Assembly: GCA_024699855.1 (NCBI GenBank)
Contig: JAMPIQ010000001.1
Coordinates: 744,001 to 808,000, forward strand
Source: Aphelenchoides besseyi
Lineage: Eukaryota; Nematoda; Chromadorea; Rhabditida; Aphelenchoididae
DNA length: 64,000 bases
Direction of reading: 5' to 3'
Shown: piece after piece, positions 13,808 through 38,563 of the stretch
Layout of the letters: every line of letters starts with the position of its first letter
Position numbering within the stretch: the stretch's first letter is position 1
Notes under the pieces: model-generated
Told to the model about the DNA's origin: nothing
Databases searched by the model: none
The model's input: only the letters and a program-made list of their open reading frames with translations
Made by a program: the position numbers and the translations under genes

Positions 13808-15535
13808 ATGTCGATTAAAAGGAGAGTTTCTTATTTTTACGACGGTGATGTTGGAAACTTCTACTACGGACAGGGACATCCGATGAAACCGCATCGAATT
13901 CGTATGACCAATTCGCTTCTTGTCGCCTATGGAGTTTATCAGAAATTAGATGTTTTCGTAAGTTTCGATCGTTTTCTTAGTTACAGAAAACTTCTTTAGC
14001 GGCCCGATCCAGCGACATTCGAGTCGTTGACGATGTTCCATTCGGACAGTTACATCAATTTTCTGCGCGACATACGACCCGACAACATTTCGAACTACGA
14101 GAACGCGATGCAGAACTTCAATGTCGGAGAAGATTGTCCGGTCTTCGATGGTCTCTACGAGTTTTGTAAAATTTCGAGCGGCGGCTCAATCGGTTGGTTT
14201 CGAGTCTGTGGATGTTTGTATTCGAGTTTCAGCGGCGGCTTCAAAAATCAACTTACAAGAATCGGATATTGCAATCAACTGGATGGGCGGTCTGCATCAC
14301 GCAAAGAAGTGTGAAGCCTCCGGATTCTGCTACACTAACGACATTGTCTTAGCGATTTTGGAGCTCCTCAATTATCACAAACGCGTTCTCTATGTTGATG
14401 TGAATCGGAAACATTGATTGAGTAAACAAACCGCTCTTTCAGATCGACATTCATCACGGTGACGGTGTGGAAGAGGCGTTCTACACGACGGATCGAGTAA
14501 TGACCGTTTCATTTCACAAATACGGTTTGTTTGACTTTCCATTCATGCACAGAACGTTTTTTAGGGGAATATTTTCCGGGAACTGGCGATCTCAAAGTAA
14601 GTGCGGAAGATGAAGTTTAGAGTCTGAAACTGGAATCTTTAGGATGTTGGCGCCGGTAGCGGACGTTATTACGCGCTGAATTTTCCGCTTCGTGACGGAA
14701 TCGACGACATGACCTACGAAAGTATTTTTGCACCAGTGATGGGCAAAGTTATGGAGTACTTTCGACCGGATGTTGTGGTTCTACAATGCGGTGCTGACTC
14801 GTTGACTGGCGATCGATTGGGATGCTTCAATCTGACGGTTCGCGGACATGGACGTTGTTTGGAGTTTTTGAAGAAGTACGACGTTCCGATCATGATGCTC
14901 GGTGGTGGAGGCTACACGATTCGAAATGTGGCTCGTTGTTGGACCTACGAGACTTCAGTGGCTTTAAATGTTGAACTATCGAACCGTGAGTTCATGTTTC
15001 GTTGACTTTAGTCAACAACGGGCTTTCAGATTTGCCGTATAATCAATACGTCGATTATTATGGCCCCGATTTCCAACTGCACATAACACCATCGAATATG
15101 CCCAACATGAACACTCGGGATTATTTGGAAAAAGTGAAGTAAGTAGTAATGAGCGTAATTGTCTGATCATGTGTTTTAGAGTCGAAATATACGAGTCTCT
15201 GAGACAACTTGATCCGGCGCCCGGTGTTCAAATGCAACGTTAGTTTGCGCACAAGTCCTGTTCAATTTCGATTTCAGAAGTTCCGAGCGTACGCATGGAC
15301 AAAACTGCAGCGATTGATGCGTCGAATCCCGACGAAAGACTACCAAGTAACCAAAAGTTTTGTTGCTAGATACAAAGATTGCCGTATTTCAGCTGCAATC
15401 ACCGATGGAATGATCGCCGATAATGGCGAATTCTACGATGAAGAAAAAGAAGGTGGTGACTATAAGAATCGGAACTCCTTCAAACGTACCGGATCTCCAA
15501 TGGAAGCGGACGACGCAAAAAGAAACAAGTCTTGA
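13808..15535 (+). CDS. hda-1: Class I histone deacetylase (HDAC1/2 type)
   Basis: This zinc-dependent lysine deacetylase belongs to the HDAC1/2/Rpd3 group, the catalytic subunit of NuRD-, Sin3- and CoREST-type corepressors. The N-terminus is diagnostic ('[20 protein letters not shown]'). The active-site stretch '[20 protein letters not shown]' is present. '[19 protein letters not shown]' spans a 42-nt intron at about 14400-14442 and includes a metal-binding Asp and the HHGDG motif. '[20 protein letters not shown]' and '[20 protein letters not shown]' include the second metal Asp and the catalytic Tyr. The tail is acidic then basic, ending '[13 protein letters not shown]'. About 450-480 residues, as expected. 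It is divergent from SMN upstream and in the same orientation as Mago, about 300 bases downstream. Confidence 0.93.
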
Positions 15536-15838
15536 AGCTAAGCAGTACAGAAGTTTTGAGTGAAGGACCCAAAATTTTTTGTATTTGAACAGAACGATAC
15601 TCTCGAATTGACCTCCAATCCGCAAACTCTTCTTCTGCATTTCTGTTATTTATTCCTTGTTCCTACTAAGTCGACAGCCGATATCAGTTGAGCTATTTAC
15701 ACGTTCACATGTAGTAATAAATAGTTCGTCAACATGGCTGAGGTGTTGGAGATTCACGTTGACAACGTTGTTGCATATCCATTCGATGTTCAATTTTTGT
15801 TTGTAAACCGATTGTTTAGAAGCTCAGCGATTCGAAAA

Positions 15839-16425
15839 ATGCCGTCGAACGAAGTGGAAATGGAGGCCGAAACCGGTGCATCTGGAGATCGAAACAAGTC
15901 GTTGGCAAAGGAACGTTTCTATTTGCGATACTACGTCGGACATCGCGGAAAGTTCGGTCACGAGTTTTTGGAGTTCGATTTTCGCCCCGACGGCAAACTG
16001 CGATATGCGAACAACAGCAACTACAAGAACGATACATTGATTCGCAAGGAGTGTGTTGTATCAAAATCGGTGCTTGCCGAATTGAAGCGCATAATCCTCG
16101 AGTCGGACATTCTGATGGTATGTGGAAGTTTTTTAGTTGATTAACACGTGTTTACAGGAAGACGATTCCAAATGGCCGGAACCGGATCGCGTTGGACGTC
16201 AGGAGTTGGAGATCTTGATTGGTGATGAGCACGTTTCTTTCACCACCAGGTTAGCAACTCAGCAATCAAATCGTACATAAGATTTTCAGCAAAATTGGCT
16301 CATTGATCGAAGTACAAGACAGCGAAGATGCCGATGGGCTTCGTGGCTTCTACTATTTGGTCCAAGATCTCAAATGCTTGGTCTTCTCGTTGATGGGACT
16401 TCACTTCAAGATCAAACCCATCTAA
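15839..16425 (+). CDS. mag-1: Mago nashi, exon junction complex subunit
   Basis: Mago forms the Mago-Y14 heterodimer that locks the exon junction complex onto spliced mRNA. The core is nearly invariant across animals and is fully present: '[20 protein letters not shown]', '[20 protein letters not shown]', '[20 protein letters not shown]' and the C-terminus '[16 protein letters not shown]'. Small introns lie near 16118-16157 and 16250-16290. The ATG at 15839 ('[12 protein letters not shown]') follows an acceptor-like TTGTTTAG at about 15817-15824. It gives a somewhat longer N-terminal leader than the usual few residues. An upstream in-frame ATG at 15734 is possible but would read through that intron-like stretch. 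Stop TAA at 16423-16425. Confidence 0.93.
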
Positions 16426-18461: not shown

Positions 18462-19874
18462 CGATATCAAAAGCTACAATCAAAATTGTGATCACAAGAT
18501 TAAGTGATTTCCGATCATACTAATTTGTGATAGTTCGATAGTGAGTGGTCGTATGTTGATATAGTTGATGCCTACGAGATTCTAGCAATGTGTTCAACAG
18601 TATCCAAACCGAAAATGAAGACATGAAATTTGCCGGTTGTCTTTGTGACTCTAAGTCGAGGATTGAAAGTTCAAAAGAAAATCATTTCAAAGGTTTGTTT
18701 ACGACAAAAGCAATTGAGTAACTGAAAGTCTCTAATCTCCTCGCCAAACGGTGAAGATCTCAAAATCACTACGCTTGTCGATAGTCGGCATAATGTTTTA
18801 TTTGGGACCAAAATTCAGCCCTAGGAGTAGTGATCGAACTCTCACCAATAGAATCGCATAACACAGACTTGATATTCAAGAAATGAATTCGAAGGACCTG
18901 AAAATTTGTTAATGTCATGAACATTATTACTCACTTTGGATTGTGTTGGCCTCTAGCGAAAATCATGAGAAGGGTTGCTTCGATTATTTGACCAACTAAC
19001 TTCCTGAATACACCAGCGCGCCGACTAACGAAACTCGATTGTAAGTTGTCACATCTTCTATCTTCATTTCCGTTACAATAGTCCCAATTGCAGGACTGCC
19101 GGTAACGTGAAGCATTGCTTCGAAGGATCAACCTATACAGGCGAACTCGAACAGCGAAATTAGATCCCCTTGATAATAAAACAAGATATGCATTAAATCG
19201 TTCCCATCATTTTAACGTCAAATAAAAATACACTAACAGCAGAATCTAATAAGAAATTGAATAGGGAAAATTAGAGCAATTGGTTCAGCGGTTTTTTAGA
19301 AAAATAGCCCTTATGTAAAGTAAGTGCCCAAAAATACGATATTTTAAGGTGCGATCGAATTTTTTGTTGTGTGGTCGTATGAAATTGATTTTATCACTTA
19401 AACAACTTTTCGAGTTGACATCCTCTCCAAGGTTTCGCTCATTCATTCTCTTCTTGCTGCAATAACTTGAGCTTCTTAATCTACACATTGTCACTTTTAG
19501 AATCTTTTTATTGTTTTACAACATTTGCTAGATTATTAACAATCAAGGTTCAGTACATTCATCAAACATATTCAAAGACAACGACGATTACTCTTCGAAC
19601 ATAGAAGTGCGTATTGTGTCGAAATATCGGAGCTCACTGTTTCCAGACATTTGTGAGTTGACTCTAACATCAATTCAGCTTGTTTAAATTCGCTGTGGTT
19701 TCGTTCGAAACGTCTGTACTTGTCGAACAACAATCAGTAAGCATCTGTTTATTGGCATAAAAACATAATAAAAAGTTCAAGTCAGCTAAAAACAATCACC
19801 AACGAGAATGAGATGAATAGTAACGTGGGTCCATTGAGCTTGCGGCGAACAACAATGCGACATTCGGTGAAGGT

Positions 19875-20400
19875 TTAAGCGCCGGCCGCTTGCGGCCCAC
19901 TCTCATGACGTAAGTACGCTATCAAAGCGCGAATTCCCACATTGTGCGTGGCCTGCAAATCATGAATGAACGTTCAACTGAAGTTCGATTACCATGTTGA
20001 AATCCCGAAATTTATCTTGCAAACTTTTTGGCAGCTCGCTGTTCATGTGTTCCTCGTCGTTGTTGGATTGTAACGAACGTTCCGCCTTGCAGAGGATATG
20101 GAGTACTTTTGGGCAAAAGACTTTGAACACGTCTTCGATAACTGCAGACAGTGTATCGTGTCGAGATCGACGTCCGCGTATTCTGCTAATCAACTCAGAA
20201 TTCATGGGAAGGTTGCGTTGAAAGATGCGGAACAATTCGCTTTGGAATTCATTGAGCGGAAATATTTCGTCCATGAACAATTTGTAAACGTCGGCATATC
20301 GCATGCCTTCGACTAAACATGAAATTTCATTACGAACTCGACTGCCAAACTAACTTTCAGGAAGACCTGCGAAGCCGGTGTCTCGGACGTTGGTGTTCAT
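19875..20400 (-). CDS. AP-2-like protein with dimerisation domain only (left-arm copy)
   Basis: About 147 residues in three exons. Exon 1 from ATG at 20398-20400 encodes 'MNTNVRDTGFAGLPE' and closely resembles the first exon of the neighbouring AP-2 gene, including the TTTATTTGCAG acceptor about 35 bases before the ATG. Exon 2 begins 'VEGMRYADVYKLFMDEIF' and ends 'LPKSLQDKFRDFNM'. Exon 3 is 'ATHNVGIRALIAYLRHES...', with stop TAA at 19875-19877. It aligns with the AP-2 helix-span-helix region ('EGEAFKLAEDFG' to 'LPPELQKQLLELNL|VTHNFGVKAMQA'), but the DNA-binding basic region and transactivation segment are missing. All introns keep frame, so it looks translatable. By analogy with other dimerisation-only relatives it could form inactive heterodimers with AP-2; this is inference. 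Confidence 0.7.
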
Positions 20401-20816
20401 TTTGGTGGCGTTTGGGATGAAACAGAGGCTGCAAATAAAAAGTTCACGACATAACACGTAAGTCGGAGTTTTCGCGCCAACACGATTTTTGCACTACAAA
20501 AGTAAATCTCTCTGAGCCAATTCCAGAGAATAATCACCGACTGAACGATTCGTTCTGAGTGGCTTTGTTCCTTCAATATCCAAATCAAAGGGCGTGGATG
20601 AGTGAGCGATCGTGGGAGGAGCGCCGACAACAAGGTCGTTGGCCCAGACTCCTACTTTCGAAGGAACAAAGGATGGTGATTGCGCAAATCAGCGAGTCGT
20701 TTGAATTCTGCCCTTAGGAAGTGTGATGCGACAATCGGTGACGCCCCGTGAACGGCGCGCAAAAACAACAGTTTTCGCTAATTACCCACAGCTAACGCCG
20801 TCGGTATTCGGTGGTT

Positions 20817-21041
20817 TCAAGGTACGTATTTTTGCTTGGCAGTCGAAAACAACGATTGCCGCAAGACATTGGTAGAGTTTTGGGGAAGAGAGCCGAGACG
20901 AACCTTCGGACGATTAAGCGCTGATATGTCGACGTAAACCATCGACGATGGAAGCACGAGGATGAACAAGAGACAACACGGTATCGAGTAAATCAGCCAA
21001 AGAAATCGACGCATAATTGAACTTCGACGATCGCTTTTCAT
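20817..21041 (-). CDS. Short type II membrane peptide (left-arm copy)
   Basis: A 74-codon frame from ATG at 21041 ('MKSDRRSSIMRRFLWLIYSI') has a basic N-terminus, one hydrophobic segment ('CCLLFILVLPSSMVYVDIS') and a short polar end containing an N-glycosylation sequon (NST). It looks like the cytoplasmic tail, anchor and start of the stem of a Golgi glycosyltransferase, but no catalytic domain follows, so it may be a truncated gene or the first exon of one. A GTACCT donor-like site overlaps its end. The right-arm copy differs at four residues, clustered in the membrane segment. I cannot assign a family. Confidence 0.4.
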   Translation of the reverse strand: MKSDRRSSIMRRFLWLIYSIPCCLLFILVLPSSMVYVDISALNRPKVRLGSLPQNSTNVLRQSLFSTAKQKYVP

Positions 21042-21185
21042 CGCCGACAACCGTAACCCAAGAATTCGATTCTGTTGCTCTGAAACGCCTAAGAGACTGA
21101 GTTCTTCTATTCGATTAACGAAGCGGTTAAAGTTGTGAATTTTATTTCTTTTACAATTCGCTGTGGTTTCTTTCGAAAAGTTTAC

Positions 21186-23882
21186 TCATAGACAAAGAAC
21201 TTGAAGCTTGGAAACATAATCAATAGCTTTTATCAGGATCGTCGTGTTCGGCCGAAGAAGTTGAAGGCAGTTCGGGGTCGACCCGTAAACTTCATGAACC
21301 CTTCGTTCGTTGAAACCGGCGACTCGAACGCCGGCATTTCGAGGTTTCTTTGCAAACGTGATCGTATCGTCCAACAATGGATCCAGATGGCACGACTAAA
21401 CTCGAAAATTGTACGTTCAAAATCGTTCGCTTACAATGAAACGACAAGTCGGAAGTTCGCGGAGCAACTCGTCGGGAGTGTACATGGGCGAAATCAAACA
21501 GTCTCGTGGCAGATTCAATTCGAGCAGCTCGCTAAGCGAAGTTTTAACTTTCTCTGCTTCCTAAAATCACTATCTTTACTACGTCGAATACTCGACTAAA
21601 CCACCTTCTGTGCAGCACGAGTCAATTTCGGAGTACTGCAGGTGCGAGTTCGTGGATCGCAATTGCGTACCGGAGTCGTGCAGTGAAATAGTCGCCGTCC
21701 TGCATTCACTTCGGCGGCATTTTGACCGTTTTCTCTCTCGAAAACATTGTCATCAGCCGCAAGGTTGCTCATGCTGAAAGAAGCAGTCCGAAAGAACTTC
21801 TGGACGAAACATACGTTTTCGTTAGCGGATGGCTTTGCAGGTAGTCGATCAATGTTTGATCGTAGTTGCACGTGGAGAGCGAAAGGTACGATGGATTTCG
21901 ACTAACGTAAACGGTCGCATTTTCGTTTTCTCCACGTTGCTCTTCAGATTCTTTCGTATTGGTTTCGTCAATTGAGTTATTTAGGCTCTTCGGTTCGCCT
22001 TCTCGCGTTGCTTCGTCTGTTGAACGGTTCTTTGTCGCAACCAAGGTGTGGCCATTCAACGGACTGAATGGAACGCTCATATTCGACAAATTTATCAACG
22101 AAAGAATCGACTGACTTTCAAACAAAAATAAAGCAAATGGTACAAAAAGACAAAGGTAAAACAGACGTTGCAGTCCGCTGAATCGACCAAGTGTTTTGCT
22201 TCAACTTCGTCGACATATTCCAACAACGATTTGTGTCCTCGTTGACTGATCAAACTGTTGCTTGTGAGTTCCGATATAGTTCCATTTGTACAGCAATCTG
22301 TGTACGCAGCAGCACAACGAATAACAATCCTCATGTGAAGAAGCGGATCCGTGAAACTGAGTACCCGCGATGGCGAAGGAAGATACTATAAATGCCAACT
22401 TCAAAAGATCATAAAGAAAGCAAAGTACTTGGAATCAAACCGTCCGGCATTCTCGCGGCTTTCACTTAGCCAAACGAAGGGCAACCGAAACGATCAGATT
22501 ACCACCGGCCGAATCTCCGACCATCGAAAGTTTTTTGCCGTCCCATCCAAACTTCTCAGGATTCTTCAGAATCCAGGCATAAGCGTAGAGCACGTCTTCG
22601 GTGGGAAGTGGAAATGGGAATTGAGGAACCAGCGAGTAATCCACCGACACAATCGGGCAGTCCAGATACTTTGCCCACAACCGTAAATATGTTTCTGCGA
22701 TTTTGACGATGTTGCTACATAACCTAAAAGAAGCAGCTCGCGTTTTTATGTGTTTACCGCTCTTCCAACCTTCGCCGTGACAATGAAGCAATAGATTGGA
22801 GGAAAGTGGCTTCGTTGATTTTGTGGACGACTAAACATCTCAACGATCAGAGGCATTCAATTCACGTGACCTACCAATCCTTCACGACTTGTTGCCGACA
22901 GGATGCGCACTTGTATCGGAGTTGATGGTCCATGAGCACTCGGTTCAGGGATTTCAACTGGCCGCCCATCTCTTCCATCCAATCGGATCGGACCGTCCAT
23001 CGGAATCAGAACGACTTTGTTGATCTCCATCGTTGGACAAAGCAGTTTCGGCGGCGGGATTTCGGATAGGTTCCAAAAGTCGCGGCAAAACTCCAGATCG
23101 GCTTCCCGAGTCACTTTGATGATTCGTCGAGTACGCTCTTCAGAATTCAGAAAGTAGCGGCCGGAATTGAGCAGCGAACTGAACGCCGCCGTTCCACTTT
23201 CCCACGACCACGAGTAGGTGGCCAAAATGATTCCAATCGCATTGAAGATCGACGTGACGCTCGGAGCAAACTAAAAGCCAAAAAGAAAAGCAATTTCAAA
23301 GACTTCGAACCTACAAACCCGAAAACCGAATGCACGACCATAGAAACAAGAAGCATCCAAGCCCTCGATTCCCTTCAGCATACCATGATACAACGAGTAG
23401 TCGCAGTCAAGCGACGGGAACAACGAGTTCTCGTCCAATGTTTCGCTCAAAAGCACGACCGAAATCCATTTCCCGGTGTGTGTTCGTCGTAGTCGCATTT
23501 TCGTGCAGCCTCTTGCATCTTCAGCATCAAGTCTGAAATCAGCGATCTTTCGAATGGACGATGTCAACAGTTGTTACCGTTGATCATTTCGCTGCAACAT
23601 TCGGCGATTCGCTGATAGCACATGGATTTGGTTCGATTCGCGTCGAAGTAGACGTGATTCTCGTCGGCCAGCTAAACCCCGTGAAGTCATTTCGAACACG
23701 AGGAAATCAGATTACCAGTTTGAGCAAACGGAAAACTCCATCACACTCCACGAGCATTCGCGGTTCAACTTTGCGCGAACGACCGTTGGAATGTCGTTGC
23801 GATGAGTTTCCGTTTGCATCGAGTCGGCTGGAACACACGAACGTATGATAAACCAGCGGATGTTCATGACACGCAATTGCAT
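21186..23882 (-). pseudogene. Hormone-sensitive-lipase-like pseudogene (left arm)
   Basis: Similar to animal hormone-sensitive lipase (neutral diacylglycerol lipase of fat stores). The N-terminal regulatory part is recognisable ('DEHTPGNGFRS', 'CFYGRAFGFR', then 'FAPSVTSIFNAIGIILATYS'). The alpha/beta-hydrolase core has the DYSL/APQFPFP block, nucleophile motif GDSAGG, 'PSPSRVLSFTDPLLHM' and 'LDPLLDDTITFAKKPRNAGV' with the expected acid. Damage shared with the right arm: a frame slip after GNGFRS (about 23454), one near the TSSKS block (about 22705), an out-of-frame join near 22429, and the oxyanion motif HGGG changed to HGEG. Private damage here is a frame loss creating a stop at about 22466 ('VALRLAK*'). 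Its start lies about 110 bases after the AP-2 stop on the same strand. I judge it non-functional as a lipase. Confidence 0.75.
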
Positions 23883-23931
23883 TTCATTTCAACGGCTTCG
23901 AATATCAAACAACAATCAGCTAGCATCTTTG

Positions 23932-23937
23932 TTTATT
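23932..23937 (-). terminator. Poly(A) signal of the AP-2 gene
   Basis: AATAAA on the minus strand, 56 bases after the AP-2 stop. The same block (CAATAAACAGATGCT and neighbours) recurs downstream of the short AP-2-like genes at about 19755, 29985 and 34040, so the 3' end is shared by all four. Confidence 0.6.
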
Positions 23938-23992
23938 GGTATAAAATCATAATAAAAAGTTCAGGTCAGCTTAAAAGAGAATCCATTATCGT

Positions 23993-25593
23993 TTATTCTT
24001 CTGTTTCTAATATTTGGGACATTCTTTGGTAAAAGAATCCTTCCATGCCTTCGACTAAACAGTAAATTTCATTACGAGCTCCACAGTTAAACTAACCTTC
24101 AGGAACAGGCGCTTTGGGAGCGCCCAGAGCCGAGAAAACTGCCTGCATTGCTTTGACTCCAAAATTGTGGGTAACCTGAAAATAGAAGATTGAGCATCCT
24201 ATCGAGCGTAACCTACCAAATTCAATTCAAGAAGTTGTTTTTGCAACTCTGGCGGTAACGCATTCCGATCCACGAAATCGACCAGATTTCCGTAACCCAT
24301 CTCGAGCAACGATCGGTCGCGTTCGAGCAATCCACCAAGACAGCCGAATGTCGCTAACATAAGGTCAGTGATCGCCTCCGCCATCTGATCCTCAGTTGTA
24401 AGTTGGTCAAAGTTGTCCAACAACTGAAGAACTTCAGTAGCTCGCGGAGACAATCCGTCGGCAAAAGACTTTACCAATTCATTCCGCACCCATCTCGAAT
24501 CCAAACGTTCGCCGATCGCGTTTCCAAAGTCTTCGGCCAACTTGAAAGCTTCACCTTCACAGAGCGCCGTGAAGGTAGTGGGAGATAAAGTTCGTTTGCG
24601 TCCCGACACCAAGTCGATTCCCTTGTTGCGCAGTTGGTCGCTCAGCTGTTTGTAACCACCTTTTTCCTTGGCTCTAAATGCTCATTAAACGATTCATATA
24701 AGCTAACATACTTTCTTAAAACGGCACCAAGAAGCGAAATGCCCAGATTTTCTGGTGCACTAGTTCGCCGCATAACTTCACCTACGGTGACGTCAAATTT
24801 GGTGCTGTTGTGTAGCAGAGCCAATCGACCCGGAACCTTCATGAACACTTCGTCCCTTGCAGTGTTTGATGAAGCTAAATTGAAAGATGAAATTTTCACA
24901 TTTTACAGGGATCATTCTCAAGTTTGTTTGGTCACGTGCCATTGAGGTTTGATATCAAAACACGAAGTTAGAAGCCCCAAGAAAAATGATCGATTACTCG
25001 AATTCTCATAAAAAGTGGTCATTTTTTGAGTCACTTTGTAATTTAAACCGAACATTGATTACTTACTGTTGACTGTCGATGAAGAATCCGTGTAAACGCC
25101 GCTGCCGAACGCGTTGTTTGGTGCGAAAAAAGAAGTTGGTTGCATTGGGGTCGAAGACATTGGTAGTGCGTTGTTTGCGAGTTGTTGAGTTGACAGTTGC
25201 GGTTGATATGGAGTGTACGTGTGGTTGGGCCATTGATTTGCAAATCCGTAATTCTGAAATTGAAAGTACATCAACTTGCTCTCATCTTCGAGATACCTCA
25301 AAGAATCCTGCTTGCAAGTTCGGGATGAGCGGAAACGCAGGTTGGTAGTCTGTAAATGTGGTCATTAGCTAGAACGACCTTCAAAACTTACGGCCGAGGT
25401 TTTGCGGTGTTGATTGAGTAACCGGTTGGAATGGCTGCCGATTGTAAGAGTTCTCTGTTAGAACCGTTCGCTTTGGTACGATGTTCTCTTCCTGATCAGC
25501 CGAATCACGAAGACGTTGGCAACTGTTCGCCAAGCCGGACGACGACGCGAACGGCGGGAGTTCGTCATTGTTGTCTCCGACGTTGCTGTTCAT
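23993..25593 (-). CDS. aptf: AP-2 family transcription factor
   Basis: Sequence-specific transcription factor of the TFAP2 family; C. elegans members are named aptf, and aptf-1 is known for its role in the sleep-active neuron RIS. Exon 1 starts at ATG 25593 ('MNSNVGDNNDELPPF'). A Gln/Pro/Ser/Thr/Asn-rich activation-type region follows, with a PPxY-like stretch ('NHTYTPYQPQ'). The basic DNA-binding region is intact: 'VFMKVPGRLALLHNSTKF', 'VTVGEVMRRTSAPENLGISL', 'LGAVLRKAKEKGGYKQLSDQ' and 'GIDLVSGRKRTLSPTTF'. The helix-span-helix dimerisation domain runs from 'CEGEAFKLAEDFGNAIGERL' through 'LPPELQKQLLELNL' to 'VTHNFGVKAMQAVFSALG'. A final small exon adds 'VEGMEGFFYQRMSQILETEE'. About 400 residues, all introns in frame. 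The poly(A) signal (23932-23937) lies only about 50 bases before the lipase ATG. Confidence 0.92.
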
Positions 25594-26064
25594 TTTAGTG
25601 GCGAATTTGGGACGAAACAGAGGCTGCAAATAAAAAGTTCACGATATAACACGTAAGTCGAAGTTTTCGCGCCAACACGTAGAGGTGATCTTCAAGAAAC
25701 AACCGGAAATGAGAAGTTGGCGCAGATAACAACAAAAACTAAGTGAGGGATACAATGGAATTGTTCTCACACTATCTAAGCGCCTTGTAAACAATGCCGA
25801 CAAACACGCGAAGAAAAAGAACGAAGACTCGATCGATGGTCTTTCCGCGGTTCAAAGTCTTCGGTCGACACTTCGAAAGTCGACGGCTGCTCACAAAACT
25901 GAGTTGAGCCGAACGCTTGTAAGATTGAGCGAAAAAAACGGCTCCAATCACTAGACACACGAAGAGGTGTGAAAAAGTTGCACAAAAGTGCCGCTGCTTC
26001 TACTGCGTCTAATACAATGCGAAATCGGTGGTTTCCATTCGCCATTCACACACTCGGCCTCCGA

Positions 26065-28546
26065 AGAATCACGTCTACTTCCACGCGAATCGAACCAAAT
26101 CCATGTGCTATCAGCGAATCGCCGAATGTTGCAGCGAAATGATCAACGGTAACAACTGTTGACATCGTCCATTCGAAAGATCGCTGATTTCAGACTTGAT
26201 GCTGAAGATGCAAGAGGCTGCACGAAAATGCGACTACGACGAACACACACCGGGAAATGGATTTCGGTCGTGCTTTTGAGCGAAACATTGGACGAGAACT
26301 CGTTGTTCCCGTCGCTTGACTGCGACTACTCGTTGTAACATGGGATGCTGAAGGGAATCGAGGGCTTGGATGCTTCTTGTTTCTATGGTCGTGCATTCGG
26401 TTTTCGGGTTTGTAGGTTCGAAGTCTTTGAAATTGCTTTTTTTTTGGCTTTTAGTTTGCTCCGAGCGTCACGTCGATCTTCAATGCGATTGGAATCATTT
26501 TGGCCACCTACTTGTGGTCGTGGGAAAGTGGAACGGCGGCGTTCAGTTCGCTGCTCCATTCCGGCCGCTACTTTCTGAATTCTGAAGAGCGTGCTCGACG
26601 AATCATCAAAGTGACTCGGGAAGCCGATCTGGAGTTTTGCCGCGACTTTTGGAACCTATCCGAAATCCCGCCGCCGAAACTGTTTTGTCCAACGATGGAG
26701 ATCAACAAAGTCGTTCTGATTCCGATGGACGATCCGATCCGATTGGATGGAAGAGATGGGCGGCCAGTTGAAATCCCTGAACCGAGTGCTCATGGACCAT
26801 CAACTCCGATACAAGTGCGCATCCTGTCGGCAACAAGTCGTGAAGGATTGGTAGGTCACGTGAATTGAATGCCTCTGATCGTTGAGATGTTTAGTCGTCC
26901 ACAAAATCAACGAAGCCACTTTCCTCCAATCTATTGCTTCATTGTCACGGCGAAGGTTGGAAGAGCGGTAAACACATAAAAACGCGAGCTGCTTCTTTTA
27001 GGTTATGTAGCAACATCGTCAAAATCGCAGAAACATATTTACGGTTGTGGGCAAAGTATCTGGACTGCCCGATTGTGTCGGTGGATTACTCGCTGGCTCC
27101 TCAATTCCCATTTCCACTTCCCACCGAAGACGTGCTCTACGCTTATGCCTGGATTCTGAAGAATCCTGAGAAGTTTGGATGGGACGGCAAAAAACTTTCG
27201 ATGGTCGGAGATTCGGCCGGTGGTAATCTGATCGTTTCGGTTGCTCTTCGTTTGGCTCAATTGAAAGCCGCGAGAATGCCGGACGGTTTGATTCCAAGTA
27301 CTTTGCTTTCTTTATGATCTTTTGAAGTTGGCATTTATAGTATCTTCCTTCGCCATCGCGGGTACTCAGTTTCACGGATCCGCTTCTTCACATGAGGATT
27401 GTTATTCGTTGTGCTGCTGCGTACACAGATTGCTGTACAAATGGAACTATATCGGAACTCACAAGCAACAGTTTGATCAGTCAACGAGGACACAAATCGT
27501 TGTTGGAATATGTCGACGAAGTTGAAGCAAAACACTTGATCGATTCAGCGGACTGCAACGTCTGTTTTACCTTTGTCTTTTTGTACCATTTGCTTTATTT
27601 TTGTTTGAAAGTCAGTCGATTCTTTCGTTGATAAATTTGTCGAATATGAGCGTTCCATTCAGTCCGTTGAATGGCCACACCTTGGTTGCGACAAAGAACC
27701 GTTCAACAGACGACGAAGCAACGCGAGAAGGCGAACCGAAGAGCCTAAATAACTCAATTGACGAAACCAATACGAAAGAATCTGAAGAGCAACGTGGAGA
27801 AAACGAAAAATGCGACCGTTTACGTTAGTCGAAATCCATCGTACCTTTCGCTCTCCACGTGCAACTACGATCAAACATTGATCGACTACCTGCAAAGCCA
27901 TCCGCTAACGAAAACGTATGTTTCGTCCAGAAGTTCTTTCGGACTGCTTCTTTCAGCATGAGCAACCTTGCGGCTGATGACAATGTTTTCGAGAGAGAAA
28001 ACGGTCAAAATGCCGCCGAAGTGAATGCAGGACGGCGACTATTTCACTGCACGACTCCGGTACGCAATTGCGATCCACGAACTCGCACCTGCAGTACTCC
28101 GAAATTGACTCGTGCTGCACAGAAGGTGGTTTAGTCGAGTATTCGACGTAGTAAAGATAGTGATTTTAGGAAGCAGAGAAAGTTAAAACTTCGCTTAGCG
28201 AGCTGCTCGAATTGAATCTGCCACGAGACTGTTTGATTTCGCCCATGTACACTCCCGACGAGTTGCTCCGCGAACTTCCGACTTGTCGTTTCATTGTAAG
28301 CGAACGATTTTGAACGTACAATTTTCGAGTTTAGTCGTGCCATCTGGATCCATTGTTGGACGATACGATCACGTTTGCAAAGAAACCTCGAAATGCCGGC
28401 GTTCGAGTCGCCGGTTTTCAACGAACGAAGGGTTCATGAAGTTTTACGGGTCGACCCCGAACTGCCTTCAACTTCTTCGGCCGAACACGACGATCCTGAT
28501 AAAAGCTATTGATTATGTTTCCAAGCTTCAAGTTCTTTGTCTATGA
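26065..28546 (+). pseudogene. Hormone-sensitive-lipase-like pseudogene (right arm)
   Basis: Same gene as at 21186-23882, on the plus strand. It lacks the first exon because the repeat edge cuts it. It keeps GDSAGG (about 27206-27223), 'DYSLAPQFPFPLP' and the PSPSR/TDPLL block, and shares the frame slips after GNGFRS, near TSSKS and at GLIP, plus HGEG for HGGG (about 26945). Here the frame is open past the nucleophile ('RLAQLKAARMPDGLIP'), where the left copy stops. Private lesions are an extra A at about 27806-27810 (giving 'ENEKCDRLR*') and extra T bases at about 28415-28418 and 28442-28445 that break the region of the catalytic His. With no promoter and multiple breaks it is clearly dead. 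Confidence 0.8.
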
Positions 28547-28690
28547 GTAAACTTTTCGAAAGAAACCACAGCGAATTGTAAAAGAAATAAAATTCACAAC
28601 TTTAACCGCTTCGTTAATCGAATAGAAGAACTCAGTCTCTTAGGCGTTTCAGAGCAACAGAATCGAATTCTTGGGTTACGGTTGTCGGCG

Positions 28691-28915
28691 ATGAAAAGCG
28701 ATCGTCGAAGTTCAATTATGCGTCGATTTCTTTGGCTGATGTACTCGGTACCGTGTTGTCTCTTGTTTATCCTCGTGCTTTCATCGACGATGGTTTACGT
28801 CGACATATCAGCGCTTAATCGTCCGAAGGTTCGTCTCGGCTCTCTTCCCCAAAACTCTACCAATGTCTTGCGGCAATCGTTGTTTTCGACTGCCAAGCAA
28901 AAATACGTACCTTGA
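28691..28915 (+). CDS. Short type II membrane peptide (right-arm copy)
   Basis: Counterpart of 20817-21041, from ATG at 28691, 74 codons. Its membrane segment differs from the left copy at four places ('LMYSVPCCLLFILVLSSTMV' here), while the rest of the peptide is identical. The frame is intact in both arms, but no downstream catalytic exons were found. The upstream sequence contains the CCACAGCGAATT motif also found beyond the short AP-2-like genes. Unrecognised; it could be a decayed glycosyltransferase 5' exon. Confidence 0.4.
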   Translation: MKSDRRSSIMRRFLWLMYSVPCCLLFILVLSSTMVYVDISALNRPKVRLGSLPQNSTNVLRQSLFSTAKQKYVP

Positions 28916-29333
28916 AACCACCGAATACCGACGGCGTTAGCTGTGGGTGATTAGCGAAAACTGTTGTTTTTGCGCGCCGTTCACGAGGCGTCACCGATTG
29001 TCGCATCACACTTCCTAAGGGCAGAATTCAAACGACTCGCTGATTTGCACAATCACCATTCTTTGTTTCTTCGAAAGTAGGAGTCTGGGCCAATGACCTT
29101 GTTGTCGGCGCTCCTCCCACGATCGCTCACTCATCCACGCCCTTTGATTTGGATATTGAAGGAACAAAGCCACTCAGAACAAATCGTTCAGTCGGTGATT
29201 ATTCTCTGGAATTGGCTCAGAGAGGTTTACGTTTGTAGTGCAAAAATCGTGTTGGCGCGAAAACTCCGACTTACGTGTTATGTCGTGAACTTTTTATTTG
29301 CAGCCTCTGTTTCATTCCAAACTCGCCACCAAA

Positions 29334-29859
29334 ATGAACACCAACGTCCGAGACACCGGCTTCGCAGGTCTTCCTGAAAGTTAGTTTGGCAGTCGAGTTC
29401 GTAATGAAATTTCATGTTTAGTCGAAGGCATGCGATATGCCGACGTTTTCAACTTGTTTAGGGTTGAAATATTTCCGCTCAATGAATTCCGAAGCGAATT
29501 GCGTCGCTCCTTTCAACCCAACCTTCCCATGTATTCTGACTTGATCAGCAGAGTACGCGGACGTCGATCTCGACACGATACACTGTCTGCAGTTATCGAC
29601 GATGTGTTCGAAGTCTTTTGCCCAATAGTACTCCATATCCTCTGCAAGGCGGAACGTTCGTTACATTCCAACAACGACGAGGAACACATGAACAGCGAGC
29701 TGCCGAAAAGTTTGCTAGATAAATTTCGGGATTTCAACATGGTAATCGAACTTCAGTTGAACGTTTATTCATGATTTGCAGGCCACGCACAATGTGGGAA
29801 TTCGCGCTTTGATAGCGTACTTACGTCATGAGAGTTGGCCGAAAGCGGCCGGCGCTTAA
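29334..29859 (+). CDS. AP-2-like protein with dimerisation domain only (right-arm copy)
   Basis: Right-arm counterpart of 19875-20400. It has the same three-exon plan from ATG at 29334 ('MNTNVRDTGFAGLPE'), an exon 2 from 'VEGMRYADVFNLFRVEIFPL' to 'LPKSLLDKFRDFNM', and exon 3 'ATHNVGIRALIAYLRHESW', with TAA at 29857-29859. All splice sites and the frame are intact. Exon 2 differs from the left copy at roughly 24 bases, about 20 of them changing the amino acid (for example F to R, I to S, M-D to R-V), while flanking DNA is nearly identical. No DNA-binding region. Its persistence as an open frame beside a broken lipase suggests it is still under selection; role unknown. Confidence 0.68.
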
Positions 29860-31272
29860 ACCTTCACCGAATGTCGCATTGTTGTTCGCCGCAAGCTCAA
29901 TGGACCCACGTTACTATTCATCTCATTCTCGTTAGTGATTGTTTTTAGCTGACTTGAACTTTTTATTATGTTTTTATGCCAATAAACAGATGCTTGCTGA
30001 TTGTTGTTCGACAAGTACAGACGTTTCGAACGAAACCACAGCGAATTTAAACAAGCTGAATTGATGTTAGAGTCAACTCACAAATGTCTGGAAACAGTGA
30101 GCTCCGATATTTCGACACAATACGCACTTCTATGTTCGAAGAGTAATCGTCGTTGTCTTTGAATATGTTTGATGAATGTACTGAACCTTGATTGTTAATA
30201 ATCTAGCAAATGTTGTAAAACAATAAAAAGATTCTAAAAGTGACAATGTGTAGATTAAGAAGCTCAAGTTATTGCAGCAAGAAGAGAATGAATGAGCGAA
30301 ACCTTGGAGAGGATGTCAACTCGGAACGGTGTTTAAGTGATAAAATCAATTTCATACGACCACACAACAAAAAATTCGATCGCACCTTAAAATATCGTAT
30401 TTTTGGGCACTTACTTTACATAAGGGCTATTTTTCTAAAAAACCGCTGAACCAATTGCTCTAATTTTCCCTATTCAATTTCTTATTAGATTCTGCTGTTA
30501 GTGTATTTTTATTTGACGTTAAAATGATGGGAACGATTTAATGCATATCTTGTTTTATTATCAAGGGGATCTAATTTCGCTGTTCGAGTTCGCCTGTATA
30601 GGTTGATCCTTCGAAGCAATGCTTCACGTTACCGGCAGTCCTGCAATTGGGACTATTGTAACGGAAATGAAGATAGAAGATGTGACAACTTACAATCGAG
30701 TTTCGTTAGTCGGCGCGCTGGTGTATTCAGGAAGTTAGTTGGTCAAATAATCGAAGCAACCCTTCTCATGATTTTCGCTAGAGGCCAACACAATCCAAAG
30801 TGAGTAATAATGCTCATGACATTAACAAATTTTCAGGTCCTTCGAATTCATTTCTTGAATATCAAGGCTGTGTTATGCGATTCTATTGGTGAGAGTTCGA
30901 TCACTACTCCTAGGGTTGAATTTTGGTCCCAAATAAAACATTATGCCGACTATCGACAAGCGTAGTGATTTTGAGATCTTCACCGTTTGGCGAGGAGATT
31001 AGAGACTTTCAGTTACTCAATTGCTTTTGTCGTAAACAAACCTTTGAAATGATTTTCTTTTGAACTTTCAATCCTCGACTTAGAGTCACAAAGACAACCG
31101 GCAAATTTCATGTCTTCATTTTCGGTTTGGAGACTGTTGAACACATTGCTAGAATCTCGTAGGCATCAACTATATCAACATACGACCACTCACTATCGAA
31201 CTATCACAAATTAGTATGATCGGAAATCACTTAATCTTGTGATCACAATTTTGATTGTAGCTTTTGATATCG

Positions 31273-33282
31273 ATCTTAATAACTGTAAATTTCATGAATA
31301 ATGCGGTCCTAAACATAGTCGAAGCAAATGAGCCGAAAATTTTAACCATCAGACATTAAAGTCCGAGAGAAGTCAACTTCCATTGTCTACAACTCGAAGA
31401 CCAGTGACTGTATAAGCTTGTAGTTAACAAAACAACAATAAACACTATTGCACTCTAAACCCTGTGAATATCAGCGAAATCCGATCAGCCAATGAGCTAC
31501 AATACGCAACACCCCTCATTCCCTTGTATAACCCGTCCATCGCCCAAATCGATGTATCTTGGAAATTCTGGCAACAACTAGTGCTCAAATTGTTTTAACA
31601 AATAGCTTAAAGGTTTAGCTATTCAAGGTGTTCAAACTCGTAGCTACCGGATAACTGGAAGAGAAGTGAGAGCACTTCAAAGTCAGAAGATTTGTCAAAA
31701 ATCGTCCAAAATTGCAAAAGTTTGTGGAGCTCTTCTCACTAAAAATGGATAGCTGTAATTTGGCACACTTCTTATGGAGCTTAAAAGATTATAATTCTAG
31801 GAATTTCGAGAGCTGAGGTTGATCGAGAGCAGAATTGGAATCTAAAACACACTCAAAAACTGAGTCTTGTGAACTTGACTATAACAACGATATTAGTTGG
31901 TCTCAATCGCTGTAATTTGCGGGACAACTACACAATATTGGATTAGTTTGTGGTGGTTACTGCATGTTAATCGATTTAATGCTTGCAGAAATCGAACCTC
32001 ACGTCTACGGCTTGAGATAAGGAAAAGTAAGAAGCACAATTGCTTTCATATCTCAACTTCTAGTCGTCAAATGTTAATGAACTTCCAGCCACGTTGAATC
32101 AGTCAATATCTTAACATCTAGAGTTCTGATCAAACGTTTTTAGTGGCCATCAAAAACACTCTCCAAGTGATTGGTTCATTGATCGAAAATTCGAAATCCC
32201 TACGTGAAAAAAGCAACCGGATCTTCAGGTCATTTTACTCGAAGTTTTACGGGTAGCTGCTACTACCTCTGATCGCTGATCGTGTCAACCTGTTGGGTCG
32301 GATGTAAACCCGAAAAAGCAGTCGATTCGACCATTTTACTCGCTCCTTCTTTTCTCCATTTGCTCTTGAATTCTGTTCAGTGGATCAGAGTACAGATTTT
32401 TTACTGTCTAGTTTTCGATTGGGACTGGAAGGGATAATGGAATTGATGATTGTAGTGTATTCGAAGGATGTTATTAGCGAGCATTCAGGCAACCCTCCTG
32501 TAGTGAGATCGATTTTGTTGTTCTTCATTTGCGACTGCTTCCAAGGAATCTCAAGTGAACGTCACAGCATCTAGCCACTTGTTTTCAACCTCTGGTCATT
32601 AAAAACCATCACACCACTCCAAGTTTCTGCATTCAATAGTTCAAACAGAAGCTACTCCAGTTTTGCCATCGTATATTCTGGAATGCGATCACTGCGAGTT
32701 TATAAGCAATGCCCAACGATGGTCATTCGTGTTGTTTAGGCGCAAAGAAAAATTTAAATGGCGTGCCAACCAGCTTCGCGCAGTAAAAGACGGAGCTACC
32801 TCGTTTCGTGATCGGGCGCCATGGCCGTTCAGATGGTCAGTTGCCGTTTTTCTTCATGACCAAGCAACCGCTTGCCATCTCTTCCTCCGCTTTGTTCTAA
32901 TCTCCGTCGTTTTGATTTCGTTTACCCAACGATTTCTCCTGCTTGCTTAATCTGAAGTTTACAGTCACCTATCCAGTGGTCATCCGAAGCTTTAATCTTG
33001 ATTGCCTCATGTCGCTTTTCTCCGCGTTGGTCAAGAATTGTGTTCACTGTTGTTGTGTTGTTGCAGCTTGTTGTTATGCTTTCTTCCCATTTCCTACGCA
33101 TTTCAATTTGTTGTTTGAGTTCGTTAAGCCAAGCTTGAGAATAACTCTACGACTGTCGTTGTCATCATTCTTTTTGCTAACAGAGATCGAAGAAAATTTG
33201 GGGACTTCGATTTGAATGAATCTTAGATATCTTGTAAGAGAGTGTTATCCACTTATTCGCTTGGAGTTTCGTGATCTTGTCT
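31273..33282. other. Intergenic region outside the right arm
   Basis: Contains the dispersed repeat at 31350-31880. Short plus-strand frames at 32380-33215 are hydrophobic and Phe/Leu-rich but have no recognisable domain or splice-linked continuation. No gene is supported. Confidence 0.5.
31350..31880. repeat. Dispersed repeat, copy A
   Basis: Aligns along about 530 bases with 53385-53930 in the same orientation, with scattered substitutions and small indels. Well-conserved blocks include CATTCCCTTGTATAACCCG, GTCCATCGCCCAAATCGATG and AGTCAGAAGATTTGTCAAAA. It has no long open frame and no obvious terminal repeats, so it may be a non-autonomous element or a structured transcript. Confidence 0.75.
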
Positions 33283-34025
33283 AGCGAACTGAACGCCGCC
33301 GTTCCACTTTCCCACGACCACGAGTAGGTGGCCAAAATGATTCCAATCACATTGAAGATCGACGTGGCGCTCGGAGCAAACTAAAAGCCAAAAAGAAAAG
33401 CAATTTCAAAGACTTCGAACCTACAAACCCGAAAACCGAATGCACGACCATAGAAACAAGAAGCATCCAAGCCCTCGATTCCCTTCAGCATACCATGATA
33501 CAACGAGTAGTCGCAGTCAAGCGACGGGAACAACGAGTTCTCGTCCAATGTTTCGCTCAAAAGCACGACCGAAATCCATTTCCCGGTGTGTGTTCGTCGT
33601 AATCGCACTTTCGTGCAGCTTCTTGCATCTTCAGCATCAAATCTGAAATCAGCGATCTTTCGAATGGACGATGTCAACAGTTGTTACCGTTGATCATTTC
33701 GCTGCAACATTCGGCGATTCGCTGATAGCATATGGATTTGGTTCGATTCGCGTCGAAGTAGACGTGATTCTCGTCGGCCAGCGAAACCCCATGAAGTCAT
33801 TTCGAACACGAGGAAATCAGATTACCAGTTTGAGCAAACGGAAAACTCCATCACGCTCCACGAGCATTCGCGGTTCAACTTTGCGCAAACGACCGTTAAA
33901 ATGGCGTTGCGATGAGTTTCCGTGTGCATCGAGTCGGCTGGAACACACAAACGTATGATAAACCGGCGGATGCTCATGACGCCCCATTGCATTTCGTTTG
34001 AACGGCTTCGAATATCAAACAACAA
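33283..34025 (-). pseudogene. Lipase 5' fragment (third copy)
   Basis: Nearly identical to about 23173-23890: the N-terminal exons of the hormone-sensitive-lipase-like gene, from the first exon ('MLFDIRSRSNEMQW'-type start near 34025) to the SVTSIFN region. The copy stops abruptly at 33283, before the catalytic core. It keeps the same frame slip after the GNGF block. It lies directly downstream of a short AP-2-like gene, repeating the AP-2-then-lipase order of the main locus. Confidence 0.75.
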
Positions 34026-34166
34026 TCATCAAGCATCTGTTTATTGGTATAAAAACATAATAAAAAGTTCAGGTCAGCTAAAAACCATCACCAACGAGAA
34101 TGAGATAAATAGTAACGTGGGTCCATTGAGCTTGCGGCGAACAACAATGCGACATTCTGGGAAGGT

Positions 34167-34707
34167 TTAAGCGCTGGTCTGTTTCGGCTCACTCATATGA
34201 TCAAGGACAGTTTTCAAGATAAGGATTCTAAAGTTGCGCATGGCCTACAAATCATGAATGAACGTTCAACTGAACTTCAATTACCATGTTGAAATCCCGA
34301 AGTTTATCTTGCAAAATTTTCGGCAGCTCGCTGTTCATGTGTTCCTTGTGGTAGTTAAATTGTAACAAACGTTGTACCTTCAACAACTGATCCTTGTCGA
34401 GGATTTGGTACATTTCTTGGCTAACAACATCCAAGAATTCTGCGACAACTGAAGATTTTCCATCGGGTCCAGATTGGCATTCGTCCATTCTGCGGAACAA
34501 GTGGAAATACACGGGAAGATTGCGTCGAACAGAGCGACACAATTCCCTTTCAATTTCCCTGATCGGAAGTTGTTCAAACATAATCATGTTGAAATCGTCG
34601 GCCAATTGCATGGCTTCCACTAAACATGAAATTTCATTACGAATTAGAATGTCGAACTAACTTTCAGGAAGACCTGCGAAGCCGGTGTCTCGGACGTTGC
34701 TGTTCAT
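34167..34707 (-). CDS. AP-2-like protein with dimerisation domain only (third copy, diverged)
   Basis: About 152 residues in three exons from ATG at 34705-34707 ('MNSNVRDTGFAGLPE'). Exon 2 starts 'VEAMQLADDFNMIMFEQLPI' and ends 'LPKILQDKLRDFNM'. Exon 3 is 'AMRNFRILILKTVLDHMSEP...', with TAA at 34167-34169. Exon 2 matches the AP-2 dimerisation helix better than the arm copies do ('EAMQLADDF' against 'EAFKLAEDF' in AP-2; 'IERELCRSV' against 'VRNELVKSF'). Untranslated regions, introns and exon 1 are almost identical to the arm copies, while most of exon 2 and exon 3 are strongly different yet stay in frame. That pattern points to a functional, fast-changing protein. It lacks a DNA-binding region. 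Confidence 0.68.
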
Positions 34708-35160
34708 TTTGGTGGCGAGTTTGGGATGAAACAGAGGCTGCAAATAAAAAGTTCACGACATAACACGTAAGTCGGAGTTTTCGCGCCAACACGATTTTTG
34801 CACTACAAACGTAAAAGTCTCTGAGCCAACTCCAGAGAATAATCACCGACTGAACGATTTGTTCTGAGTGGCTTTGTTCCTTCAATATCCAAATCAAAGG
34901 GCGTGGATGAGTGAGCGATCGTGGGAGGAGCGCCGACAACAAGGTCATTGGCCCAGACTCCTACTTTCGAAGAAACAAAGGATGGTGATTGTGCAAATCA
35001 GCGAGTCGTTTGAATTCTGCCCTTAGGAAGTGTGATGCGACAATCGGTGACGCCTCGTGAACGGCGCGCAAAAACAACAGTTTTCGCTAATTACCTACAC
35101 CGACGGCGTTCGGTGGTTTCAAGATTTGAATTTTTGCTTGCCAATCGAAAACAATGATTG
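34708..35160 (-). promoter_or_regulatory. Conserved 5' flank of the third AP-2-like copy
   Basis: Matches the upstream DNA of both arm copies (about 20401-20830 and 28910-29333) almost base for base. This includes the TTTATTTGCAG acceptor before the ATG and a CACGCCC box. It then fades inside a rearranged remnant of the membrane-peptide frame (35100-35160, 'TTCGGTGGTTTCAAG' onward). Conservation in three copies may reflect recent duplication rather than function. Confidence 0.5.
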
Positions 35161-35845: not shown

Positions 35846-38563
35846 ATGTCCGAGTTAACGGCCATTCAGAAATCCACTGTAACGTCGTTGAAATCGTGTT
35901 GTTCTCGTCTGAGCTTCGAACATGTGAAATCGAGTGAAAATGGGCCGAACGTCGAATATTCGCGTCCAGATTTTGTTCAAGGAACCGAGTTGTTGCACAC
36001 GATGAAGAGTCTATACGACATGGAAAGTCAGTTGGACACCGTGGACGACGATCTGACCATTCAAGCACTTAAGGAGTGTATGAAAAAGATTGCGATTTTG
36101 GACGAGAGACGAAAAGATTGCGATGAGGTTTGGAATTTTATTTTGATTTTATCTCGTGTTTAGAGTTTGAATGAATTGCATGAGAAATACGATTCTGTGA
36201 CAGAGAAAACCTCTCAACTGCACAACGCTTGTGATCGGATGATGTCCGAACAGACTCAATTGGCTGCTGGATCCGAGAGAATCAAATCTAATCTTCATTA
36301 CTATCAACAGTACGATTGGATTATGAAGGTAATAAATAGGTATTTTCAACGCCTTTTCATGTACGTTTAGAAACTGCAAACTTCGAAATTGTCGTTAACT
36401 GGGACGGTGTTCACGCAAATTCTTTCGACTATTCACGAGTGCATGACGTTTCTACGCGCCAATCCAGAGCATCGAGAATCAACGGTTTATCTCGTCAAAT
36501 ACGAACAATGCATGAGCAAAGCATTGACTGCTATTAAGCAGGGCGTCTTATCATTGTTGGAAGCTTGTGATCAAGATGTGAAACAACGCCAAAGAAGTCG
36601 ACAAGGAGAAGAAGATCCGTTCACACTCTTCTATGGTGTTTTCGGTTTGAAAGCTTCATCAGTCAAGTGAGTTTGAAAATACGAATCAGTTGCTTACTTT
36701 TGCTTTAGAAATACGATTGCTTTGGCGCATCAGTATTTTGCGAGTTATCCCGAGTATCAATCGATGTTTATGGACTGCGAATTGGAATACTTTCAAATTC
36801 GAGATCGTCTTCTTCAACCCGTTATCTATGCCACGCTTAATCAGTTGACTCGACGTCACAAAGACTCGTCTTGTTCGTTGACTCGTGATGGTTGCTTATT
36901 TCTCCTACGATTATGTGACGACGAATTTCGTTTGTACAAGCAGTTCTTTGTGGTTTTCGATGTTGACACGGCGCCTCCGACTGCCGCCAGTCGTTTGAGT
37001 TTACGAAGACGTCCAACTGCCAATTCGACAGCTCAAACTTTTTGGGATCAAGTCTCGGCACCGTTTGATCGTTTCATTGAAGGTCTCTGTCGTGTGTTCT
37101 ACGATACTCTACGACCATTGGTTATTCACAATCAACATTTGGAGACGTTGGCTCAATTGTGTTCGTTGTTGAAAATCGAGATGATCGAAGAGCGTTGTCT
37201 GCAAGTCCAACCACACGACGAGTTGGAATCGCTGATCAATCCGAGAGCTGGTTTTGTGGTTGTGATGCGTGAACTCGTGGGCGACATTGTTGAACGAATT
37301 GTTTACCGGTAAGTAAGCGAAAATAAAATGAAATGATCGTATCGTTTAGAACGTCGATTTTCGCTCGAAACGATTTGCTGTCTTACAATCCGGTAATCGG
37401 CGATCTCTACTATCCGGAATTGTTTCTGATGATGCGCGATATTGAGCAGAAACAGAAAACGAACGAGTTGGCTCAGAAGTCCAATTTGACGGCCGTCGAT
37501 CAACATTGTTTGTGGTACCCGACGGTTCGCAGAGCGATTTTATGTTTGAGCAAATTGTACAAATGTTTGGATGTGAGTGAGCAGTTCCGGTGTTTATCGA
37601 CTGATATTTTTAGGCTGGAGTCTTTGCCAGTGTTTCTCGAGACATTTTGGATTCCTGTTGTCAATCGTTGGAGATTGCAGCCAACAAAATTCGCGAGATT
37701 CCAATCGATCCGTCGAAAGCAACGTTGAAAGGACAAGGTCGATTGTTGGATGCCGAGTTGTTTCTGGTGAAACATCTTTTGATTATGCGCGAACAATCGG
37801 CGCCGTTTCGTCTTCCAACCACTCAGTCGAGTCGAAATCAACCAGAAAGCTCGTTGACTCAATTTGATTACTCGTTGGACTTGGGAAAGTATCGTGAGAA
37901 TGCCAGTGAGCTGTTTAGTGCCGAGAACAGAGCTCGTTGGTTCGAATTAAGCTCAAACAATGCGGTCTTGTCATTCCTCCTATCTGTAAGTCATTCTTTC
38001 AATTCCTTTATTTTCGGCTTTTAGCCACCTGTTCAAGTCAATGAACTTCAACTCGATAGTCGACGAATTGTTGAGTCCCGTCTGAAGAAACATTGTCAAC
38101 AGTTGATTCAATATGTGGTCGGATTCTTAACCAAAAATCTTATTGCTGTAAGCACATTAATTGATCACGAAGAGGTAAACGGAAATTAAAGAATGTGACC
38201 TTAATCTGTATTTCAGAGCAAAAAAACGCCCGTCGATTACTCCAAACACCCATCGCTTAGTCCAAAGTCGTTGAACGATGCAACTTCTGAGGCTTTTAAA
38301 TGCATTAAACAAAATTGGCCATCAGTAAGTTTCAACTAATTCTTTCATTTATTCAACCTGTTTCTTAGATCATTGCCGCTTATCATCTGTACATTGGAGG
38401 ATCCGAAACGGAAGAAATCTTACTGCAACCCGTGAGAAAAGGAGTAGTTGGCACATTCGGTTTAGTCGAAAAGTTTGTTCAAAAGAACTTCAATGAAGAA
38501 CAACAACAAGTTGCTTCAGTTCCAAATCAGGAACAAATTTGGTTACTCTTAAATGTGTCCTAA
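35846..38563 (+). CDS. cogc-3: Conserved oligomeric Golgi complex subunit 3 (COG3/Sec34)
   Basis: COG3 belongs to lobe A of the COG tethering complex, which acts in retrograde traffic within the Golgi. The gene reads from ATG 35846-35848 ('[18 protein letters not shown]') through about a dozen short-intron exons. The conserved Sec34 region is recognisable: '[20 protein letters not shown]' across the intron at about 36328-36370, then '[20 protein letters not shown]' and '[20 protein letters not shown]'. Long helical C-terminal repeats follow. The last residues before TAA (38561-38563) are '[11 protein letters not shown]'. The size, about 770 residues, is near the family norm. The Argonaute gene follows about 195 bases downstream on the same strand, but has its own TATA box. 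Confidence 0.85.

Follow-up and report, generated by a model that had tools for sequence, protein, structure and literature searches.

A multicopy Aphelenchoides besseyi gene family that keeps only the AP-2 dimerisation domain, looks to be diversifying and may act as Id proteins do

In a 64,000-nucleotide stretch of the Aphelenchoides besseyi genome (positions 744,001 to 808,000 of contig JAMPIQ010000001.1; hereafter the window), three short genes encode proteins that keep the helix-span-helix (HSH) dimerisation domain of AP-2 and have no DNA-binding basic region. They belong to what looks, from the sequences, to be a diversifying family of at least 13 members, beyond what an earlier, preliminary description of the window could see. 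A. besseyi is the rice white-tip nematode, a plant parasite of the order Rhabditida. By analogy with the Id proteins, the three genes (here A, B and C) would belong to a young microprotein family of A. besseyi, derived from AP-2, that titrates AP-2 into non-DNA-binding dimers, a reading that we rate just above an even chance.

A scripted rebuild places the three genes at the ends given in the preliminary description (Table 1), with products of about the 150 residues expected. Each gene has one open frame and, in the splice models, three exons; the introns measure 42 and 40 nt and have GT..AG borders. Frames and splice sites are intact, as had been claimed. Copy C is identical, letter for letter, to a hypothetical A. 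besseyi protein at NCBI (P0004). We take TTTTTATTTGCAG before the ATG of A to be a putative splice-leader acceptor, and the same acceptor-like sequence is found before B, C and a full-length AP-2.

As described, the three genes adjoin this full-length AP-2, which is of type 1 and lies in the loop of a 5.2-kb inverted repeat whose arms hold A and B. The arms differ most in the HSH exon, with 17 mismatches in the 200 positions 20270-20071; each of the other full intervals compared has 0-6. Each arm also carries a piece of an Abhydrolase_3 (hormone-sensitive-lipase-like) gene, with a third partial copy at 33283-34084. Elsewhere in the window are genes for a histone deacetylase, Mago nashi, COG3 and an Argonaute with PAZ and ArgoL1 (14643-16144, 36677-37312, 39680-40738), and a dispersed 0.5-kb repeat, 79% identical between 31350-31859 and 53385-53892.

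Table 1. Coordinates of HSH-only genes and related features (window positions, except for the last line)
Feature	Position	Strand	Description
HSH-only gene A	20400-19875; exons 20400-20355, 20312-19993, 19952-19875	-	147 aa; splice model; true frame open in exon 2
HSH-only gene B	29334-29859; exons 29334-29379, 29422-29741, 29782-29859	+	147 aa; splice model
HSH-only gene C	34707-34167; exons 34707-34662, 34619-34285, 34244-34167	-	152 aa; splice model
TTTTTATTTGCAG before ATG of A	20429-20441	-	putative splice-leader acceptor
TTTTTATTTGCAG before B	29291-29303	+	acceptor-like sequence
TTTTTATTTGCAG before C	34738-34750	-	acceptor-like sequence
TTTTTATTTGCAG before full-length AP-2	25624-25636	-	acceptor-like sequence
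Full-length type-1 AP-2	25593-23993; exons 25593-25392, 25349-25297, 25253-25067, 24874-24712, 24673-24217, 24175-24097, 24054-23993	-	400 aa, seven exons; splice model; TF_AP-2 E 2.1e-38
3' end of type-1 AP-2	23993-24096	-	matches HSH-only intron 1 and start of HSH exon, cut short; from sequence
Inverted repeat, arm 1	18462-23661	-	holds A; 98.6% identity to arm 2
Inverted repeat, arm 2	26065-31272	+	holds B; 98.6% identity to arm 1
N-terminus-only AP-2 genes	L055 C2:10.34 Mb, L056 C1:13.71 Mb, L057 C3:0.60 Mb, L058 C3:4.48 Mb, L066 C2:9.89 Mb		

The preliminary description had assigned the short proteins to AP-2 and staked the assignment on a profile search, which comes out AP-2-like. When a profile of 13 HSH-only proteins is compared with a profile built from 12 AP-2s, ten of which come from species other than Aphelenchoides, the two match at P 3e-6 and a probability of 88%, in register over the HSH. 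In a Pfam scan, TF_AP-2 does not match A or B and matches C at E 0.0013, below cut-off; among the 13 members it appears at E <= 1 in five (best 5.5e-4), with none seen over the cut-off, and TFAP2 is not found when the HSH-only profile alone is compared with solved structures. At the sequence level, the decisive evidence for an AP-2 domain is that full-length AP-2s of the same species, here type 2, bear the same type of HSH and act as intermediates. Three of these proteins (P0008, P0009 and P0011) match TF_AP-2 at E 8e-39 to 4e-36, and the type-2 HSH is 49-54% identical to copy C. In the predicted model of P0008 the HSH is confident (block means around 90 across most of residues 321-440), and each of the seven PDB entries that this model matches at E <= 0.001 is a human TFAP2A/B. 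In single-chain models, the helices predicted for copy C match those of P0008 at a 300-residue shift; the model of C has lower confidence than that of P0008 (mean pLDDT 73, pTM 0.59) and by itself gives no significant fold match.

The second half of the original claim, that no basic region is present, also stands: just 15-16 residues lie ahead of the HSH exon, and the deletion can be mapped. The homologous dimerisation domain is there, but because the basic region before it is missing, an HSH-only protein is not an AP-2 transcription factor.

Descent from AP-2 likewise stands, but the neighbouring gene, whose HSH is more canonical, is not the nearest full-length parent; this place falls to AP-2s of type 2 at other sites in the genome. 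Splice models give five such genes, three with products identical to NCBI entries. Similarly, exon 1 had been described as shared with the AP-2 next door. About 86 nt of promoter-proximal DNA upstream of the ATG and about the first 7 codons are indeed common to HSH-only and AP-2 genes; the rest of exon 1 is not, and its modest match (14-18 of 25 nt) is to the end of the type-2 basic-region exon. Both introns are kept from type 2, the 42-nt intron before the HSH exon with 33-38 of 42 bases identical to A and C, and the 40-nt last intron with 35-38 of 40 bases identical to A. The HSH exon measures 320 nt in type-2 gene T2a and in 11 of the 13 HSH-only genes, 335 nt in C, T2c and T2e, 317 nt in HSH-only copy L042 and 287 nt in T2b and T2d.

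HSH-only exon 1 opens with the 7 codons that begin AP-2 exon 1 and continues for 25 nt; the junction links those codons to roughly the final 8 of the basic-region exon. Across the five type-2 genes the deleted length is 989-1,194 nt, about 1 kb and in frame. The simplest account is that a single in-frame internal deletion removed the activation and DNA-binding parts of a type-2 gene; because the junction is common to all 13 intact copies, we infer one origin. The products, at 147-152 aa against 390-450 aa for the type-2 parents, are microproteins in the sense of short single-domain derivatives of a larger multidomain protein. The HSH exon of C groups with type-2 AP-2 genes (clade support 96), from which gene conversion among copies is evident, and the 3' end of the type-1 neighbour, whose last intron is identical to intron 1 of A at 35 of 42 nt, is, judged by its letters, a gene fusion or a conversion tail.

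A DNA search of the nematode's own genome returns at least 42 matches, a lower bound with 40 of 54 candidates scored. Seventeen HSH-only loci were examined and at least 13 are intact, two of them, besides C, identical to NCBI proteins (L037 to P0003 and L039 to P0002, the latter from M3Y98). All 13 carry a putative trans-splice acceptor before the ATG, and 12 (the exception is L037) have AATAAA in the 3' flank. Among the other four, L045 on C2 has no complete model, and the three on contig C28 have no intact one. C28, 19.7 kb long, can be aligned with window positions 18521-33805 at 95.4% identity, and gap openings (408) outnumber mismatches (189) in the alignment; by its sequence it looks like a duplicate of the window locus (L060, L061) in unpolished or alternative-haplotype form. 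A search for the same truncated family among 5.8 billion proteins, based on shared 5-residue words and covering annotated proteins of similar length, finds HSH-only proteins in A. besseyi alone, four in number (two M3Y96, two M3Y98); the other matches are three A. besseyi AP-2s of 233-249 residues and an unnamed 103-residue fragment (P0035).

The 13 intact copies were compared in 78 pairs, with the four other loci dropped. Mean dN is 0.233 and mean dS 0.124, and dN exceeds dS in 74 of the pairs. A codon model gives an omega of 2.12 (lnL -2670.55, where the same tree with an omega of 1 gives -2684.83; LRT 28.6), a value that assumes one tree, is complicated by gene conversion and has to be read with a coding silent divergence above the intron divergence of 0.071. 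UTRs in the same copies diverge by 0.054-0.090. Adding five type-2 HSHs gives 2.04 (LRT 33.2). For 11 of the 13 copies, over the 320-nt exon, the ratio is 2.10 in the true frame and 0.75-1.12 in the five other frames, and with GC-conservative changes the signal is stronger (5.7 versus 2.0). The fastest block, codons 61-96 (2.4-2.6), lies inside the HSH; exon 1 reaches 2.5 at very low divergence. The first 200 nt of exon 2 have a nucleotide diversity of 0.19-0.41; for the 160 nt leading up to the start region it is 0.02-0.06, and for part of the 5' flank further upstream 0.11-0.18.

On these figures the HSH-only family looks to be under diversifying selection. By the same measure, type-2 genes give 0.51 for the N-terminus, 0.40 for the basic region, which is constrained, and 1.07 for the HSH with its tail. 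Type-1 HSHs give 0.62-0.83 in five of six pairs, the sixth being without silent change, and type-1 basic regions 0.45-0.52 in three pairs and 1.06-1.10 in two, with one undefined; given those two, not every AP-2 here is strictly constrained. Transcription-factor dimerisation domains are normally conserved, and for this reason an omega above 2 in such a domain, in at least 13 intact copies, is unusual. It points to an arms race, or to a code for partner specificity.

The reverse product is also seen. At five loci (Table 1), the AP-2 N-terminus with its activation part is in frame with the last residues and 3'UTR, and the basic region and HSH are deleted. A complete short frame (124-126 aa) is present in three, whereas the guide alignment puts a stop in the other two; the three intact members have ratios of 0.63-1.18, without an excess like that of the HSH-only genes. 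In the NCBI annotation, AP-2 is also found fused with its neighbours, a major sperm protein (P0010) or a lipase-like hydrolase (P0015, P0019).

DNA binding by AP-2 requires a dimer formed through the HSH, with involvement of the adjacent basic region (excerpts of PMC2890516 and PMC4866721). An HSH-only protein would pair through its HSH with a full-length AP-2, most likely type 2, with type 1 or the conserved AP-2s as possible partners. Because AP-2 binds DNA as a dimer using its basic regions, such a partner would withdraw it from DNA, in the way that Id acts on bHLH factors and microproteins act more widely (excerpts of PMC5381583). The shared promoter-proximal DNA could put both proteins in the same cells. 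Rapid change in the HSH might tune partner choice or escape it. Against this reading, the fastest block lies inside the HSH, and dimerisation could have been lost in some copies.

A diversifying HSH is expected from co-evolution of decoy and target, but also from a new partner. It is possible, and we put it forward tentatively, that HSH-only decoys and type-2 AP-2s diversify their HSHs mutually and swap HSH exons by conversion, in an arms race or partner code; omega is about 2 for the decoys, about 1.1 for the type-2 HSH and 0.4 for the type-2 basic region. If so, which AP-2 partners are silenced and which are spared would depend on the decoy, and the sets of copies would differ between populations.

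On the new-partner explanation, which we consider rather unlikely, the proteins would be real and selected but no longer AP-2 antagonists, with the HSH reused as a stand-alone module (in homodimers, HSH-only heterodimers or with other partners) and selection acting on the new role. The rapid change inside the HSH fits this account, as do two sites, L067 (C1:10.39 Mb) and L068 (C1:15.22 Mb), where a type-1 AP-2 is broken (stop in exon 1; HSH ending after AEDFW) beside an intact HSH-only neighbour. Distance can be read in its favor too, since an AP-2 match lies within 5 kb of seven of the 13 intact copies (those at the two sites included, and within 9 kb of copy C) and the other six have none within 5 kb. 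Yet the HSH tail KAERSLQSNN..DFNM, with a ratio near 1, is nearly invariant (pN 0.061), and exchange of the HSH with type-2 genes suggests that the task is still shared.

Genetic conflict, with the HSH-only gene as a selfish or toxin-antidote-like element, or its suppressor, set against full-length AP-2, strikes us as improbable. Nematodes are rich in such elements, the family is multicopy, dispersed and diversifying, and no equal-length intact copy in the window's genome is more than 84% identical to the M3Y98 protein P0001; however, no toxin-like partner gene was identified, and the ends of homology vary among loci.

We regard it as very improbable that the genes are neutral deletion derivatives, untranslated or decaying. 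L045, broken outside C28, the three C28 loci and the existence of the reverse deletion products would agree with decay. Against it, at least 306 changes among the 13 copies (chosen as intact, and 13 of the 14 outside C28) would have produced about 10 stops without constraint, and none is seen; all 13 keep both GT..AG introns at the same lengths, and the excess of amino-acid change is frame-specific. The marks of a pseudogene, frame loss and no coding-specific change, are therefore absent from these copies. Many effectors of plant parasites are multicopy and diversifying, as this family is, but the N-terminus MNSNVRDTGFAGLPE has, judged by eye, no hydrophobic signal peptide and the proteins derive from a nuclear factor, so we give secreted effectors hardly any credence.

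Titration of AP-2 by HSH-only microproteins, the reading that we prefer, can be compared with several known systems. Factors of the bHLH class and several plant factors are known to have relatives that only dimerise; for AP-2, an animal developmental regulator, we found none described. In the open-access literature we find no description of an HSH-only AP-2 and, in agreement with the preliminary description, no natural AP-2 antagonist family. The origin of the family can be read stepwise, from parent gene, deletion ends and retained introns to spread and selection. It lets one ask whether dominant-negative paralogues drive rapid change in their targets, and natural AP-2 blockers would be offered as tools.

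Human TFAP2A/B and C. elegans APTF-1 to -4 have the HSH domain in common with the HSH-only proteins, by shared descent through type-2 AP-2, but the latter have neither the basic region nor the activation domain. Four AP-2 members are present in C. elegans, and the excerpt of PMC4866721 with that count gives no HSH-only form. Other incomplete AP-2s are a natural AP-2alpha isoform with residues 296-437 altered, in which the HSH is lost and the basic part kept (excerpt of PMC6418405), and an engineered, dominant-negative delta-AP-2gamma in which only the activation domain is missing (excerpt of PMC2890516); neither, however, is HSH-only or a gene family. The microProteins LITTLE ZIPPER, MIF and miP1a/b are, likewise, short single-domain relatives of a larger factor, but their target interaction is demonstrated. 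In the text of PMC5381583, where Id is described as the first microprotein, no AP-2 microprotein is named (0 occurrences of 'AP-2').

The closest parallel is with the Id proteins, in which the dimerisation domain is also kept, the basic region is also missing and inactive dimers would likewise be expected. The domain there is HLH and here HSH, and the Pfam matches listed at E <= 1 for the 13 members include no HLH family; by this analogy, the HSH-only family may work like Id without being a member of it. It is also young, multicopy, fast-evolving and traced to one internal deletion, and to our knowledge its at least 13 intact, apparently diversifying members set it apart from the Id family.
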